The notes under the pieces: generated by a model
What the model saw: the letters and a program-made list of their open reading frames with translations, nothing else
Database searches by the model: none
Told to the model about the DNA's origin: nothing
Shown here: one piece after another, positions 49,444 to 54,710 of the stretch
How the letters are laid out: every line of letters starts with the position of its first letter
Numbering within the stretch: position 1 is the stretch's first letter
Assembly (NCBI GenBank): GCA_009778065.1
Contig: WRKM01000004.1
Span: 1 to 64,000 of the forward strand
Origin: Oscillospiraceae bacterium
GTDB lineage: Bacteria; Bacillota; Clostridia; Oscillospirales; Ruminococcaceae
Length of the DNA stretch: 64,000 bases
Reading direction: 5' to 3'
Program-made: the position numbers and the translations under genes

Positions 49444-49848
49444 ATGACTATCCGCACGGCACGGACATCAGATTTTGATATAATTAATGAACACGAAAAA
49501 TGGCTTGACAAAGCAACTTTGTCTAAGAAAATCACCGACGGAAAAGTTTACGTAGTTTACAGTGGCGACAAGTTCGTCGGTTGGCTTAGATACGGGCTTT
49601 TTGGGGATAATATTCCGTTTATGTACATGTTAAATTTGTTGGAATCGCACCAAAGAAAAGGCATAGGTCGAAAGTTAGTTGAATTTTGGGAGGAGGAAAT
49701 GTGCAAAAAAGGCTATAAACTCGTGATGACTTCAGCCGCCTCAAACGAGAATGCGCAGCACTTTTACACCAAACTCGGCTATAAAGCAATCGGTAGTTTT
49801 TCATTGAAAAATGACCCGCTTGAAATTATGTTTCAGAAATTTATTTGA
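49444..49848 (+). CDS. GNAT N-acetyltransferase
   Basis: 134 residues. The acetyl-CoA motif is QRKGIGRKLVEFWEEEM, followed by AQHFYTKLGYK. Substrate unknown. It is a paralogue of the gene at 52.9 kb; both share RYxLFxDNxPF and a GYKxVMTS segment. The stop lies just before the next start. Confidence 0.85.
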   Translation: MTIRTARTSDFDIINEHEKWLDKATLSKKITDGKVYVVYSGDKFVGWLRYGLFGDNIPFMYMLNLLESHQRKGIGRKLVEFWEEEMCKKGYKLVMTSAASNENAQHFYTKLGYKAIGSFSLKNDPLEIMFQKFI

Positions 49849-49859
49849 TAGGAAAAATT

Positions 49860-51413
49860 ATGTTTAACTATATACTAACCCGCTCAAAACGCCGCACAAT
49901 CGCAATCTATGTCCGTAACGGCACAGTCGATGTCCGCGCCCCCATGAGAACCTCAAAGCGCGAAATCGATAAGTTTGTGCAGTCTAAGGAAAAGTGGATT
50001 AATGACAGATTGGCGGAGTATAACAGGCAACAGGAAAAACGTGATGAATTTGTGCAAAATAATGCCGCTTTTATTCCGCAGTTGAAAACAGAATACATCG
50101 CAAAAGCAAAATCATATATTCCCGCACGAGTAACGCATTTTTCAAAGCTGATGAATGTCACGCCGCTCGCCGTAAAAATCAACTCTGCGAAAACTCGCTG
50201 GGGGAGTTGCAGCGTGCAAAAAAGCATCAATTTTTCATGGCGGCTGATTATGGCTGATGACGATGTGATTGATTATGTTGTTGTTCATGAGTTGGCGCAT
50301 ATAACCGAAATGAATCACTCGCAGAGGTTCTGGAAAATCGTTGAAAATATACTGCCTGATTATAAAACACGGCAGTTGAAATTAAAAAAGTTACAGAAAA
50401 CTTTATCTGTGCAGGATTGGGATTATGATGCGGAAAAAGATGTTTCCGATGAAGCGGTTCAAGAAAACCCAAAACAAGATTACGCCGCTTGCGGAGCGGG
50501 TTCTGAACCGAAAGTTGAAACAAAAGTGCAATATCACTACGCTCATTATAAAACTATCCTCTCGCCGAAAAACGGCATGAACCTTTATCGCGGTTGTACC
50601 CACGGTTGCATCTATTGCGACAGCCGTAGTGCGTGTTATCAAATGAAGCACGATTTTGAGGACATTGAAGTCAAGCAGAACGCCGTGAAGATTTTGGAAT
50701 CGCAACTTCGGCGAAAACGCACACCTTGCATGATTGGTACGGGTGCGATGTGCGACCCGTACATTCACCTTGAAGAGGAACTTACACTCACGCGGCAATG
50801 CTTAGAACTCATCGAGCGGTATGGGTTCGGGTTGGCGATTCTGACTAAATCAAACCGTATTATGCGAGACATCGACCTTTTGTACAGCATTAATGCAAAC
50901 TCAAAGTGTGTTGTGCAGATGACATTGACAACTCTCGATGAAGAAATGTGCAAAATTTTAGAGCCTGATGTATCGACTACTGCGGAGCGATTCGAGGTGC
51001 TGAAAATCATGCAGAAAGCCGGAATACCAACCGTTGTGTGGCTCTGCCCGATTTTGCCTTTTATCAACGACACTGAGGAAAATTTGCGCGGGATTCTCGA
51101 TTATTGCATTGATGCCGGGGTGCGAGGGATTATGAATTTCGGTTTTGGTACGACCATGCGTGAGGGTAGCCGGGATTATTTCTACAGAAAATTAGACGAG
51201 CATTTTCCGACAGACGGCCGCCGTCCCGGTATGAAGCAGAAATATATCAAGACATTCGGCAACTCTTACGAGTGTCCAAGCCCGAACAGTAGCCGCCTGT
51301 GGCGGATTTTCTCGGATGTATGCCGAAAAAACGGGATTTTATACAAAACAAAAGATGTGTTTGAGTATATGAACAAATTTGAGTCTAAAGCGACACAGCT
51401 TTCGTTATTTTGA
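49860..51413 (+). CDS. YgjP-type metallopeptidase fused to SplB-like radical SAM domain
   Basis: 517 residues from the ATG at 49860 (AGGAAAA upstream). Residues 1-185 match the YgjP/DUF45 zinc metallopeptidase fold: TRWGSCSVQKSINFSWRL, then VVVHELAHITEMNHSQRFW with HExxH and the distal His. After a 45-residue linker, residues about 230-517 form a radical SAM domain of the SplB/Rv2578c type (COG1533) with NLYRGCTHGCIYCDSRSACY, whose CxxxCxxC binds the cluster. Both halves look catalytically intact and are in one frame. The two families normally occur as separate proteins. The join may be a functional fusion or a chance one in an island full of junctions. Confidence 0.85.
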   Translation: MFNYILTRSKRRTIAIYVRNGTVDVRAPMRTSKREIDKFVQSKEKWINDRLAEYNRQQEKRDEFVQNNAAFIPQLKTEYIAKAKSYIPARVTHFSKLMNVTPLAVKINSAKTRWGSCSVQKSINFSWRLIMADDDVIDYVVVHELAHITEMNHSQRFWKIVENILPDYKTRQLKLKKLQKTLSVQDWDYDAEKDVSDEAVQENPKQDYAACGAGSEPKVETKVQYHYAHYKTILSPKNGMNLYRGCTHGCIYCDSRSACYQMKHDFEDIEVKQNAVKILESQLRRKRTPCMIGTGAMCDPYIHLEEELTLTRQCLELIERYGFGLAILTKSNRIMRDIDLLYSINANSKCVVQMTLTTLDEEMCKILEPDVSTTAERFEVLKIMQKAGIPTVVWLCPILPFINDTEENLRGILDYCIDAGVRGIMNFGFGTTMREGSRDYFYRKLDEHFPTDGRRPGMKQKYIKTFGNSYECPSPNSSRLWRIFSDVCRKNGILYKTKDVFEYMNKFESKATQLSLF

Positions 51414-51431: not shown

Positions 51432-52211
51432 ATGCTCGGAATTTATTTTAGCGGAACAGGCAATACGCGCTATGCGGTTGAGCGGTTTGTGACAGTAATC
51501 GACAGTACGTCAAATTCGCTCTCAATCGAAGACAACGGCGTTCTAAGCGAACTCACAAAGCATGAGATATTCGTGTTCGGTTTTCCTGTTTATTACAGCA
51601 ATATCCCGAAAATCGCAAAGGACTTTATAATCGAAAACAAGGCTTGTTTCAAAGGCAAGAAAGTTTTCATTATCGCCACAAAAGGCTTGTTTAATGCGTT
51701 TGGCGTTGGTCATGCAAAAAGAATGTTTAAAGACTGCGGCGCGGAATTTATCGGAAGTTCGCAGTTTAATATGCCCGATAATATTCGGGACTTGAAGATT
51801 ATGGAAGTCGCTTTTGATTACAGCAAAGACGGAAAAATGCTCGAAAAAGCCGATAGGAAAATCGTAAAAGCCGCCGAGAAATTCAAAGCGGGTAAGCGGC
51901 AGAAAAGCGGCTTGAATCCGCTGAATTATATAATTGGTTTTTTCTTGAAAATCCTGCGGTTTTATCCCAAAACAGATAGTTATATTTCCGCGCCGAAAGT
52001 TGACATCGGGAAATGTAACGGTTGCGGTTTATGTGCGGAGTTATGCCCGATGAAAAACTTGAAAATCACTGACAGCAAGGTAGTATCGGGTAGCAAGTGT
52101 ACTGTATGTTATCGGTGTTTCGGAAATTGTCCGACACAGGCGCTGACGGTGTTGGGAGATAAGGTTTATGGGCAGTATGTGTTTGAAAAGGAAATGCGGG
52201 AGGAAGATTGA
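51432..52211 (+). CDS. EFR1-type flavodoxin-ferredoxin protein
   Basis: 259 residues. The N-terminal flavodoxin-like domain starts YFSGTGNTRYAVE (FMN phosphate loop). The C-terminus has two [4Fe-4S] motifs, CNGCGLCAELCPM and CTVCYRCFGNCPTQ. Proteins of this type are predicted small electron carriers; partners are unknown. It might reduce the radical SAM enzyme encoded just upstream. Confidence 0.85.
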   Translation: MLGIYFSGTGNTRYAVERFVTVIDSTSNSLSIEDNGVLSELTKHEIFVFGFPVYYSNIPKIAKDFIIENKACFKGKKVFIIATKGLFNAFGVGHAKRMFKDCGAEFIGSSQFNMPDNIRDLKIMEVAFDYSKDGKMLEKADRKIVKAAEKFKAGKRQKSGLNPLNYIIGFFLKILRFYPKTDSYISAPKVDIGKCNGCGLCAELCPMKNLKITDSKVVSGSKCTVCYRCFGNCPTQALTVLGDKVYGQYVFEKEMREED

Positions 52212-52347: not shown

Positions 52348-52881
52348 ATGCCCAAAAAGTTACGAAAAACCCTCGGCGATGTCAACGCACCGTCAACTAT
52401 CGCACTTCGAGAGCTGATTGACACCCAAAGCAAGGACACAATCCGTAAGTGGTGTCTTGAATACGCCGAGAATAAACTTCTGCCGATTTTTGAGAAGCAC
52501 TGCCCCGGCGACAAACGCCCTCGAAATGCCGTAAACGCCGCTCGCGACTACATTGAAGGCAAGGTGAAATTTCCTGTTGTCAAGAAGAACATACTCAACG
52601 AATGTCATCAAGCGGCACGAGAACTTGACAATAATCCGATTGCACAAACGGCGGCTCGTGGTGTTGGGCAGGGTTCGGCGGTGGTTCACACGCTGACACA
52701 TTCGCTGGGGTTGTTCTTTTACGCGGCGGCGGCAGTCGCTTATGAGCGTGTCGGGCTTGAAGCGACCGATGAGGTTTACGCCGCAATCGCAGAGGAAGTC
52801 TGCCTTGATTATACCGCCGCTTTGCGTGAAATCGCAGTTGCAAACGAGCCGAACCCTGTTAAATTAAAATGGAATTGTTGA
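52348..52881 (+). CDS. Putative immunity protein (Imm-5-like)
   Basis: 177 residues, helical, with ECHQAARELDNNPIAQTAARG and HTLTHSLGLFFYAAAAVAYERVG. It resembles a family annotated as putative polymorphic-toxin immunity protein in Clostridia. No toxin gene is adjacent, so it could be an orphan immunity gene. The first 85 bp of this gene recur in degenerate form at 55.7 kb. Confidence 0.55.
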   Translation: MPKKLRKTLGDVNAPSTIALRELIDTQSKDTIRKWCLEYAENKLLPIFEKHCPGDKRPRNAVNAARDYIEGKVKFPVVKKNILNECHQAARELDNNPIAQTAARGVGQGSAVVHTLTHSLGLFFYAAAAVAYERVGLEATDEVYAAIAEEVCLDYTAALREIAVANEPNPVKLKWNC

Positions 52882-52894
52882 CGGAGGTATGCAG

Positions 52895-53314
52895 ATGTTT
52901 GAAGTCAAATATGCAACCGAAAACGACAAGCCCTTTTGGTTCACGCTCGACAAGCATCTCAGCGAGAGTGAGTTTGCATTGAAAGTCCGTGACAGGCGCG
53001 GTTACATCATCAGCGACGGCGGCAAACCCATCGGAATCATGCGGTATAATCTGTTTTGGGATAATACTCCGTTTTTGACTCTCATTTACATTACTGAATC
53101 CTGTCAAAGACAGGGTTTCGGCAGACAGGCAATGCTCCATTGGGAGGACGAAATGCGAACGCTCGGCTATAAAATGGTAATGACCTCCACGCAAGCTGAT
53201 GAACAGGCACAGCATTTTTATCGGAAACTCGGATACGTTGATAAGGGTTGTTTAGTTTTGGACGGTACGCCGTTTGAACAGCCGCCCGAAATTATTATGA
53301 TAAAGGTTTTATAG
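52895..53314 (+). CDS. GNAT N-acetyltransferase
   Basis: 139 residues. The start is the second ATG (52895), correctly spaced from GGAGG; the track ATG is too close. The acetyl-CoA motif is QRQGFGRQAMLHWEDEM, then AQHFYRKLGY. Paralogue of the gene at 49.4 kb. Substrate unknown. Confidence 0.85.
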   Translation: MFEVKYATENDKPFWFTLDKHLSESEFALKVRDRRGYIISDGGKPIGIMRYNLFWDNTPFLTLIYITESCQRQGFGRQAMLHWEDEMRTLGYKMVMTSTQADEQAQHFYRKLGYVDKGCLVLDGTPFEQPPEIIMIKVL

Positions 53315-53372
53315 AAATATGGAGAATCGTCATATGGCAGAATCATTAAAAAGTGTCGGGAGGTCATGCGTT

Positions 53373-53551
53373 ATGAACTTTTTTGAAATCGTAAAAAAGC
53401 CGCGCTTGAAGCACTCGGTGTCCCTGCCGGGTATCGGTTGCGTGCTGTGTTGCCGATTGGAAAACCGGAGGTCGAGGGAAAGCCGCGTGAGAAATTGCCG
53501 TTTAATGAGCGGGTTAGTTATGGGAAGTTTGGGGAGGGGAAAGACACATGA
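53373..53551 (+). pseudogene. Nitroreductase-family remnant, middle deleted
   Basis: The start MNFFEIVKK is the typical N-terminus of nitroreductase-family flavoproteins. It continues, in the next frame, as KKAALEALGVPAGYRL and KPREKLPFNERVSYGKFG, the typical C-terminus. The two parts meet at GTAAAAAAGCC, where the A run could be microhomology. Roughly 60 of the usual 170-200 codons remain. The stop overlaps the next start. Confidence 0.6.
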
Positions 53552-53991
53552 ACGTCATAATTAGAAAAGCAGAGACTTCAGATATACCGCAAATACTTGA
53601 TTTATACGCCGAACTGCAACCTCTCGACACGCTAATTGAGGAAAGCATGGCACGCTCTGTTTTTGAACAGGCGAATAAATGTGGCGTTACTTATTTCGTT
53701 GCCGATATAGACGGACGAATTGCGGGAACTTGTTATATCGCAATAATTCCGAATATCACAAGGCAATGTTCGCCTATTGGATTTATTGAAAACGTAGTCA
53801 CTTCCGGCGACTATCGCCGACTTGGAATCGGTCGCAAACTAATGGATTCGGCAGTTGAATTTGCAAGAGAATGTGACTGTTACAAAGTTACATTACAAAG
53901 TGGAATTAAGCGTGAAGAAGCTCACAAATTCTACGAATCGGTAGGATTTGACGGGGATTCAAAGAGAGGGTTTGAGATTAGGTTAAAATGA
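53548..53991 (+). CDS. GNAT N-acetyltransferase
   Basis: 147 residues. IENVVTSGDYRRLGIGRKLMDSAVEFA is the acetyl-CoA region and EAHKFYESVGFDG the C-terminal beta-bulge segment. Substrate unknown. Overlaps the nitroreductase remnant by four bases and the next ORF start. Confidence 0.88.
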   Translation: MNVIIRKAETSDIPQILDLYAELQPLDTLIEESMARSVFEQANKCGVTYFVADIDGRIAGTCYIAIIPNITRQCSPIGFIENVVTSGDYRRLGIGRKLMDSAVEFARECDCYKVTLQSGIKREEAHKFYESVGFDGDSKRGFEIRLK

Positions 53992-54047
53992 GTAAGGAGG
54001 ATACCCGAAGAATTGGCGAATTTAATTTTTTGATATGGAGGCTCATC

Positions 54048-54710
54048 ATGAATTATAAAAAAGAACAACTCGAAGAAGCCCACATCGCGCTTTTATCAAC
54101 GCTCAAGAAATGCGAGAAAATCGACACGTCTACTTTCGGCAAATCGCAGAAGACGTTGCTTGAGCGACGAATCAGAGCGTTACGGTTGGCTTTGGAATTG
54201 ATAGAGAAAGAAAGAGGTGATAACACTCATAAAGCGTTTTCAGCTTTATATGGAGATAACCCGCAAATACTTATATTAGGAACATTCCCGTCTGTAAAAT
54301 CACGGGAAAGCAACGGATATTACGGCAATCCCCAAAACCAATTCTGGCGTATAATCGCTGAGATTTTTAGCGAGAAAATTGATTTCGATGATTACGAGCA
54401 AAAGAAAGCGATGATTTTCAAACATGGAATAGCTTTATGGGATACATTGATAAGCTGTGAAATAAAAGGTTCGGCAGATACGAACATAAAAAACGAAGTC
54501 GGTAACACAGAAATCCCTGTATTTGTGAAATATTTCAATATAAATAAAGTGTTGTTTAACAGCAAAAAAGCATTTAATTTTTATTGCAGATATAACGGTC
54601 TTGAAAGCCTGAAAGATATTGAATATCACATTATGCCCTCAACAAGTTCCGCTTATGCAGGAATGAATTTCAAGGAGAAGGTTTCTGTGTGGAGAGAAAA
54701 ATTAACGTAG
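54048..54710 (+). CDS. DNA-deoxyinosine/uracil glycosylase-like protein with helical N-terminal extension
   Basis: 220 residues from the ATG at 54048 (GGAGG upstream). Residues 1-57 form a helical segment (YKKEQLEEAHIALLSTLKKCEK...), like a small stand-alone Firmicutes protein. From about 62 on the uracil-DNA-glycosylase superfamily fold follows: ILGTFPSVKSRESNGYYGNPQNQFW and the C-terminal PSTSSAYAGMNFKEKV. This family removes deaminated bases. The extension is not usual and may be another island fusion. Its last 85 bp are repeated at 61.6 kb. Confidence 0.75.
   Translation: MNYKKEQLEEAHIALLSTLKKCEKIDTSTFGKSQKTLLERRIRALRLALELIEKERGDNTHKAFSALYGDNPQILILGTFPSVKSRESNGYYGNPQNQFWRIIAEIFSEKIDFDDYEQKKAMIFKHGIALWDTLISCEIKGSADTNIKNEVGNTEIPVFVKYFNINKVLFNSKKAFNFYCRYNGLESLKDIEYHIMPSTSSAYAGMNFKEKVSVWREKLT

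Follow-up and report, generated by a model that had tools for sequence, protein, structure and literature searches.

The DNA-protein crosslink proteases Wss1 and SPRTN have a minigluzincin-like peptidase (PMC4559962), and a PIP box links SPRTN to PCNA (PMC9240642). In bacteria, clamp-binding motifs follow the consensus QL[S/D]LF, and the PolC protein of B. subtilis ends in QLSLF; the hexapeptide QLSLPL binds tightly to E. coli DnaN, and affinity for the clamp can be weak even for peptides that match the motif (PMC12309361). Genes of the SplB/COG1533 type are reported to be under SOS control (PMC8565304), a network of SplB-like, DUF4130 and uracil-DNA-glycosylase proteins has been described (PMC3765255), and archaeal SplB-like genes adjoin NreB, whose family member NreA needs its PCNA motif for repair (PMC4929162). 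No function was found in the literature for the YgjP peptidases, nor for the two radical SAM families PA0069 and Rv2578c.

The locus analyzed here, from a gut bacterium, joins a peptidase and a radical SAM enzyme in a single frame. It lies in the window, i.e. the whole 64,000-nucleotide stretch of DNA that was analyzed, and comprises the following features:

49444..49848, + strand: GNAT acetyltransferase, upstream neighbour (the same gene lies upstream of YgjP in genome G020)
49860..51413, + strand: fusion ORF, 517 aa; YgjP metallopeptidase, linker, SplB-like radical SAM domain and predicted clamp-binding tail
49860..50423, + strand: YgjP-like (minigluzincin-type) metallopeptidase domain, residues 1-188, short form (PF01863, AF2 model)
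50286..50318, + strand: zinc site H143-E144-L-A-H147-x5-H153 (invariant in 26 YgjP sequences)
50424..50531, + strand: linker of 36 residues, predicted to be disordered
50532..51380, + strand: SplB-like radical SAM domain, residues 225-507 (PF04055, model, fold match)
50595..50618, + strand: CxxxCxxC [4Fe-4S]/SAM motif, C246, C250 and C253 (kept in 41 of 41 rows)
51396..51410, + strand: C-terminal QLSLF, predicted beta-clamp-binding motif, residues 513-517 (conservation, PolC identity, consensus)
51432..52211, + strand: EFR1-family flavodoxin/ferredoxin, the next gene (NF038196, 152 bits)

The fusion frame is unbroken from the ATG at 49860 to the TGA at 51411-51413 (an alternative TTG start at 49845 is possible), and no stop or frameshift is present at the junction in the assembly. 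With both Pfam matches and both catalytic motifs in place, this bears out the sequence-only reading, which had described YgjP and radical SAM domains in one ORF and had correctly regarded the two families as normally separate. The linker that it proposed exists; its 45 residues were a fair estimate of a length that comes to 36 between the natural domain ends. The genome contains neither a second PF01863 gene nor a second close radical SAM gene, and the fusion is therefore its sole carrier of both. Since fragments of the two domains were misaligned when YgjP and radical SAM sequences were aligned together, each domain was modelled from its own alignment. In a full-length model the radical SAM domain was confident (pLDDT about 95), the linker disordered and the tail loose, and structure prediction yielded no reliable interface between the two domains.

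The same architecture, with intact frames and linkers of 18 and 20 residues, was found in two further genomes of the same genus, G017 (contig WRJM01000016.1, an Oscillospiraceae MAG) and G042, which disposes of the concern that the fusion might occur only here. Thus, 3 of the 71 genomes of the genus carry it, the source genome included, and no further fusion was found among 394 genomes of the order. A phage, viral or plasmid origin was rejected, as the plasmids, viral contigs and phages searched contained no fusion, and so was a defence system (no PADLOC match). Close standalone relatives are the radical SAM protein L042 (83%) and the YgjP protein of genome G100 (88%). The compared genomes are largely drafts, a point in favour of an assembly or binning artefact at the junction. 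Set against this are the in-frame fusions in three genomes and the related genome G020, in which the same linker DNA is joined to YgjP without a radical SAM domain, so that the join of YgjP and linker is not an assembly error. An artefact is very improbable.

The N-terminal half matched PF01863 at residues 1-177 (171 bits, gathering cut-off 26, E 4e-50). The zinc ligands H143, H147 and H153, together with E144, do not vary among 26 YgjP sequences, and the RWGSC stretch is present. Judged by its sequence, this half is a YgjP-like metallopeptidase and a predicted zinc-dependent protease, and its dN/dS of 0.11 against G100 reveals purifying selection. In a Foldseek search, the AF2 model of the domain (pLDDT 96) retrieved minigluzincins first and then Wss1 (probability 1.00, E 0.04, a weak match), with PprI/IrrE following below significance. 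By HMM, WLM reached 20.3 bits, below its cut-off of 26, and there was no SprT-like match. The domain shares the HMM, the HELAH-x5-H signature and the fold with the YgjP-like PF01863 proteins and the minigluzincins abylysin, jannalysin and selecase; unlike these, the fusion adds a radical SAM enzyme, and it is of a short form in which about 40 residues of the long form are missing between residues 72 and 79.

This short form is common to the fusion and G100, while G017, G042 and G020 have the long-form YgjP. Both ends of the YgjP sequences of the window (49860-50423) and of G100 (L123) are closest to G020, and their short-form middle resembles short-form YgjP of Lachnospiraceae, possibly as a result of recombination.

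The C-terminal half matched PF04055 (Radical_SAM) at residues 240-407 (45.5 bits, cut-off 29.5). Its CxxxCxxC cysteines (residues 246-253) are invariant in all 41 radical SAM rows, and a dN/dS of about 0.04 against L042, with dS saturated, points to purifying selection. The top six PDB matches in Foldseek were all spore photoproduct lyase (SPL), with E values of 1e-8 to 1e-7 and TM scores by target of 0.54-0.55. The term SplB-like used in the sequence-only reading thus holds at the level of the fold and not at that of the Pfam family, as PF20903 (SPL) gave no match on the fusion at E up to 1. The likeness to SplB consists in the CxxxCxxC motif and the nearest solved fold; the differences are an identity of 11-13%, the missing PF20903 match and, in the 41 rows, the lack of an invariant Cys around the place in the sequence where SPL has its catalytic one. 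By sequence position only, Cys298, present in 30 of the 41 members, is comparable to the SPL hydrogen donor C140.

The closest named families by HMM were PA0069 (NF033668, 148 bits) and Rv2578c (NF038135, 120 bits). The fusion scores below their curated cut-offs of 360 and 430, respectively, and its radical SAM domain belongs to a separate clostridial group. Across 64 loci, the standalone radical SAM gene had no conserved neighbours, whether DNA-repair genes or others. As a separate observation, a short, distant COG1533-like radical SAM protein (L264) on the Staphylococcus saprophyticus plasmid NZ_CP022057.1 lies among a PF09859 DNA-damage oxygenase, an HhH-GPD glycosylase and Ada, which is apparently a DNA alkylation-repair cluster with a radical SAM enzyme.

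The tail of the fusion, QLSLF, is identical to the motif of the PolC encoded in the same genome, which ends in QLSLFELL. A clamp-type motif was found within the last 25 residues of 73 of the 96 distinct complete radical SAM homologues, compared with 0.7 expected from shuffled tails, and nowhere else in these 96 proteins; most of the remainder have near variants (QLRLF, QTGFF, QMSLPL). Both accepted forms of the motif, the pentapeptide QLSLF and the hexapeptide QMSLPL, occur among the homologues. Q513 is kept in 40 of the 41 aligned rows, and the flanking tail residues are variable. The PA0069 family of Burkholderiales has Q-x-x-[LF]-F at 20 of 23 complete C-termini, and C-terminal motifs were likewise seen in Legionella (QLDLF), Sinorhizobium (QLSLL), Paracoccus (QLSLF), Aeromonas (QLRLF), Streptomyces (QLTLL), Nonomuraea (QLRLL) and Tsukamurella (QESLF). 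By these C-terminal sequences, Rv2578c-type and other relatives share a clamp-type motif with the PA0069 family; the fusion is like both named families in this respect, although it falls short of their cut-offs.

The motif is not universal to the fold, since four more distant COG1533-like proteins (from Paenibacillus, Staphylococcus, Haladaptatus and mob pair B) are devoid of it. When the whole genome of the fusion was scanned with a nucleotide pattern for the motif, there was no enrichment (5 matches, 6 in the control), and the case for the motif therefore rests on conservation in the family; no clamp motif could be recognised in the MutS protein encoded here. The QLSLF tail is of the QL[S/D]LF type, is placed on a flexible terminus by the model and is conserved in homologues, and binding to DnaN is predicted. 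Among open-licence papers, none was found that links a clamp-binding motif to radical SAM enzymes. As far as could be checked, the parts belong to known families, and neither the fusion nor the family-wide clamp motif has been described before.

On the peptidase side, a strict N-terminal clamp motif was present in 10 of 53 YgjP proteins of Burkholderiales (0.008 in shuffles), in N-terminal extensions with QLELPF, QLDLPL, QLELPL or QLSLF. Some YgjP proteins therefore seem to have acquired their own clamp tether. Among clostridial standalone YgjP proteins none has the motif, except for a weak QLTLI in G020. A conserved clamp-type tail would give the PA0069 and Rv2578c families, as well as YgjP, a predicted place of action, namely the replication clamp.

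Because of the tail motif, the matching tail of the genome's own PolC, the SPL and minigluzincin/Wss1 folds, the selection on both domains and the recurrent fusion, we read the protein as a clamp-tethered DNA-maintenance enzyme with both domains active, and give this reading an even chance. Damaged DNA at the replication fork would then be the probable target of both halves. With the C-terminal QLSLF peptide docked on the beta clamp (DnaN), the SplB-like radical SAM domain would use radical chemistry to process a DNA lesion, and protein bound or crosslinked to DNA would be cut by the YgjP domain, whose minigluzincin fold weakly resembles that of Wss1. The DNA-repair direction suggested by the sequence-only reading has thereby gained independent support, from the clamp motif on the radical SAM family and some YgjP proteins and from a fold near Wss1. 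The specific protein-crosslink scheme for the fusion is itself rather unlikely.

If the two domains are indeed coupled, the fusion would be a compact bacterial counterpart of eukaryotic SPRTN, a protease with a PCNA-binding box, to which a domain for radical lesion chemistry is added in one chain. The likeness to SPRTN and Wss1 would lie in a peptidase of the minigluzincin/SprT fold, for which the Foldseek match to Wss1 is weak, and, for SPRTN, in the sliding-clamp tether (predicted in the fusion); in contrast, no HMM family is shared, and SPRTN and Wss1 have no radical SAM domain. The archaeal SplB-like genes beside NreB also link an SplB-like radical SAM enzyme to a clamp-binding repair family (PMC4929162), but there the reported connection is to an adjacent gene from the Nre family with its PCNA motif, whereas in the fusion the clamp-type motif is on the enzyme itself. 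A broader proposal, which we hold to be improbable, is that the COG1533-type enzymes (PA0069, Rv2578c and clostridial) form a widespread clamp-tethered repair class and that the fusion is an SPRTN-like machine, in which the clamp-bound protease would strip the crosslinked protein and the radical SAM domain would reverse the remaining DNA-peptide or DNA lesion.

Several observations stand against the DNA-maintenance reading: a motif of five residues is short, the standalone radical SAM gene has no repair neighbourhood, the Wss1 match is weak, YgjP is easily joined to other genes, and clostridial standalone YgjP proteins and other COG1533-like groups lack the motif. Its main rival, and a serious one, is a neutral or accidental join, in which the YgjP stop was lost beside a radical SAM gene and the two enzymes remain independent, the join adding nothing to what they do. 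Under this explanation, too, the radical SAM domain may act in repair while bound to the clamp. We hold a neutral join to be quite possible, if somewhat doubtful.

The junction itself favours such a join. The linker begins exactly at the stop codon of the standalone G100 YgjP gene (TAA there, TAT in the fusion), where the fusion reads GATTGGGATTAA and G100 GATTGGGATTAT (GATTGGGATTATGAT). It ends at the start of the standalone radical SAM proteins, M-x-YHYADYKTIL, and evolves almost freely (dN/dS about 0.9 against G020 over 32 codons, i.e. not under purifying selection). The small share of fusion-bearing genomes in the genus agrees with a neutral join, as does G020, which seems to have lost the radical SAM part: it carries YgjP and an alignable copy of the linker, and its end, KSEFEQLTLI, resembles the fusion end NKFESKATQLSLF, so that by sequence this looks like an in-frame loss of the radical SAM domain.

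The same genus also contains other joinings of YgjP. In G102, a 691-aa frame (L125, G102:C87, 2866-4938, minus strand) consists of an MtaB-type methylthiotransferase (UPF0004 and Radical_SAM) with a C-terminal YgjP, a second and different YgjP-radical SAM joining. In G006, a YgjP frame (L032, G006:C143, 1441-2328, minus strand) opens with about 60 residues of the 3-methyladenine glycosylase Tag, here truncated and in frame. Fusion is therefore cheap for the YgjP gene. The gene following YgjP in G006 encodes an HhH-GPD (AlkA-like) glycosylase, and in G020 (L031) Tag also lies about 2 kb from YgjP.

The trees weigh against a neutral join. The radical SAM tree rejected a single origin of all three fusions (AU p 0.004); the YgjP tree rejected a clade of the three fusions alone but not a clade of the fusions with G020 and G100 (p 0.09). 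As a single fused clade is rejected, the same pair was most likely joined in the same order two or three times, the alternative being a single fusion and a later replacement of a domain. Weak tblastn extensions upstream of radical SAM in L044, L051, L052 and L059 had suggested that an ancestral fusion had split; this was rejected, as the DNA upstream of the radical SAM gene encodes neither linker nor YgjP. A neutral join also fits poorly with the strong purifying selection on both domains in a genome with no second copy of either gene, and with the independent gain of clamp motifs by YgjP elsewhere.

Pairs of a radical SAM enzyme and a protease are common in RiPP pathways, and some weaker structural matches of the radical SAM domain were RiPP enzymes. 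The fusion might accordingly mature a peptide, with the radical SAM domain modifying it and YgjP removing the leader. However, the fusion matched neither SPASM nor any other Pfam family of auxiliary clusters, the nearest fold is spore photoproduct lyase, no candidate precursor was seen among the neighbouring ORFs above short-peptide length, and the clamp motif is left unexplained. Peptide maturation is thus very improbable.

EFR1, which the sequence-only reading had pointed out as an electron carrier in the next gene, was not supported as a dedicated electron donor: it adjoins no other fusion and no standalone radical SAM gene. In G100, a genome devoid of close radical SAM genes, EFR1 is still near YgjP, and its adjacency therefore does not discriminate between the readings. 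EFR1 is a neighbour of the fusion, not a conserved partner.

Elsewhere, in G024, a 667-aa frame (L025, G024:C281, 13-2016) appears by eye to join a possible FabH fragment, a possible RlmL-like methyltransferase and a radical SAM domain, through either genuine recombination or misassembly. Downstream of the fusion, positions 52348-54710 of the window encode an Imm5-like protein, two GNATs and a protein of the uracil-DNA-glycosylase superfamily, forming a mixed, cassette-like stretch.
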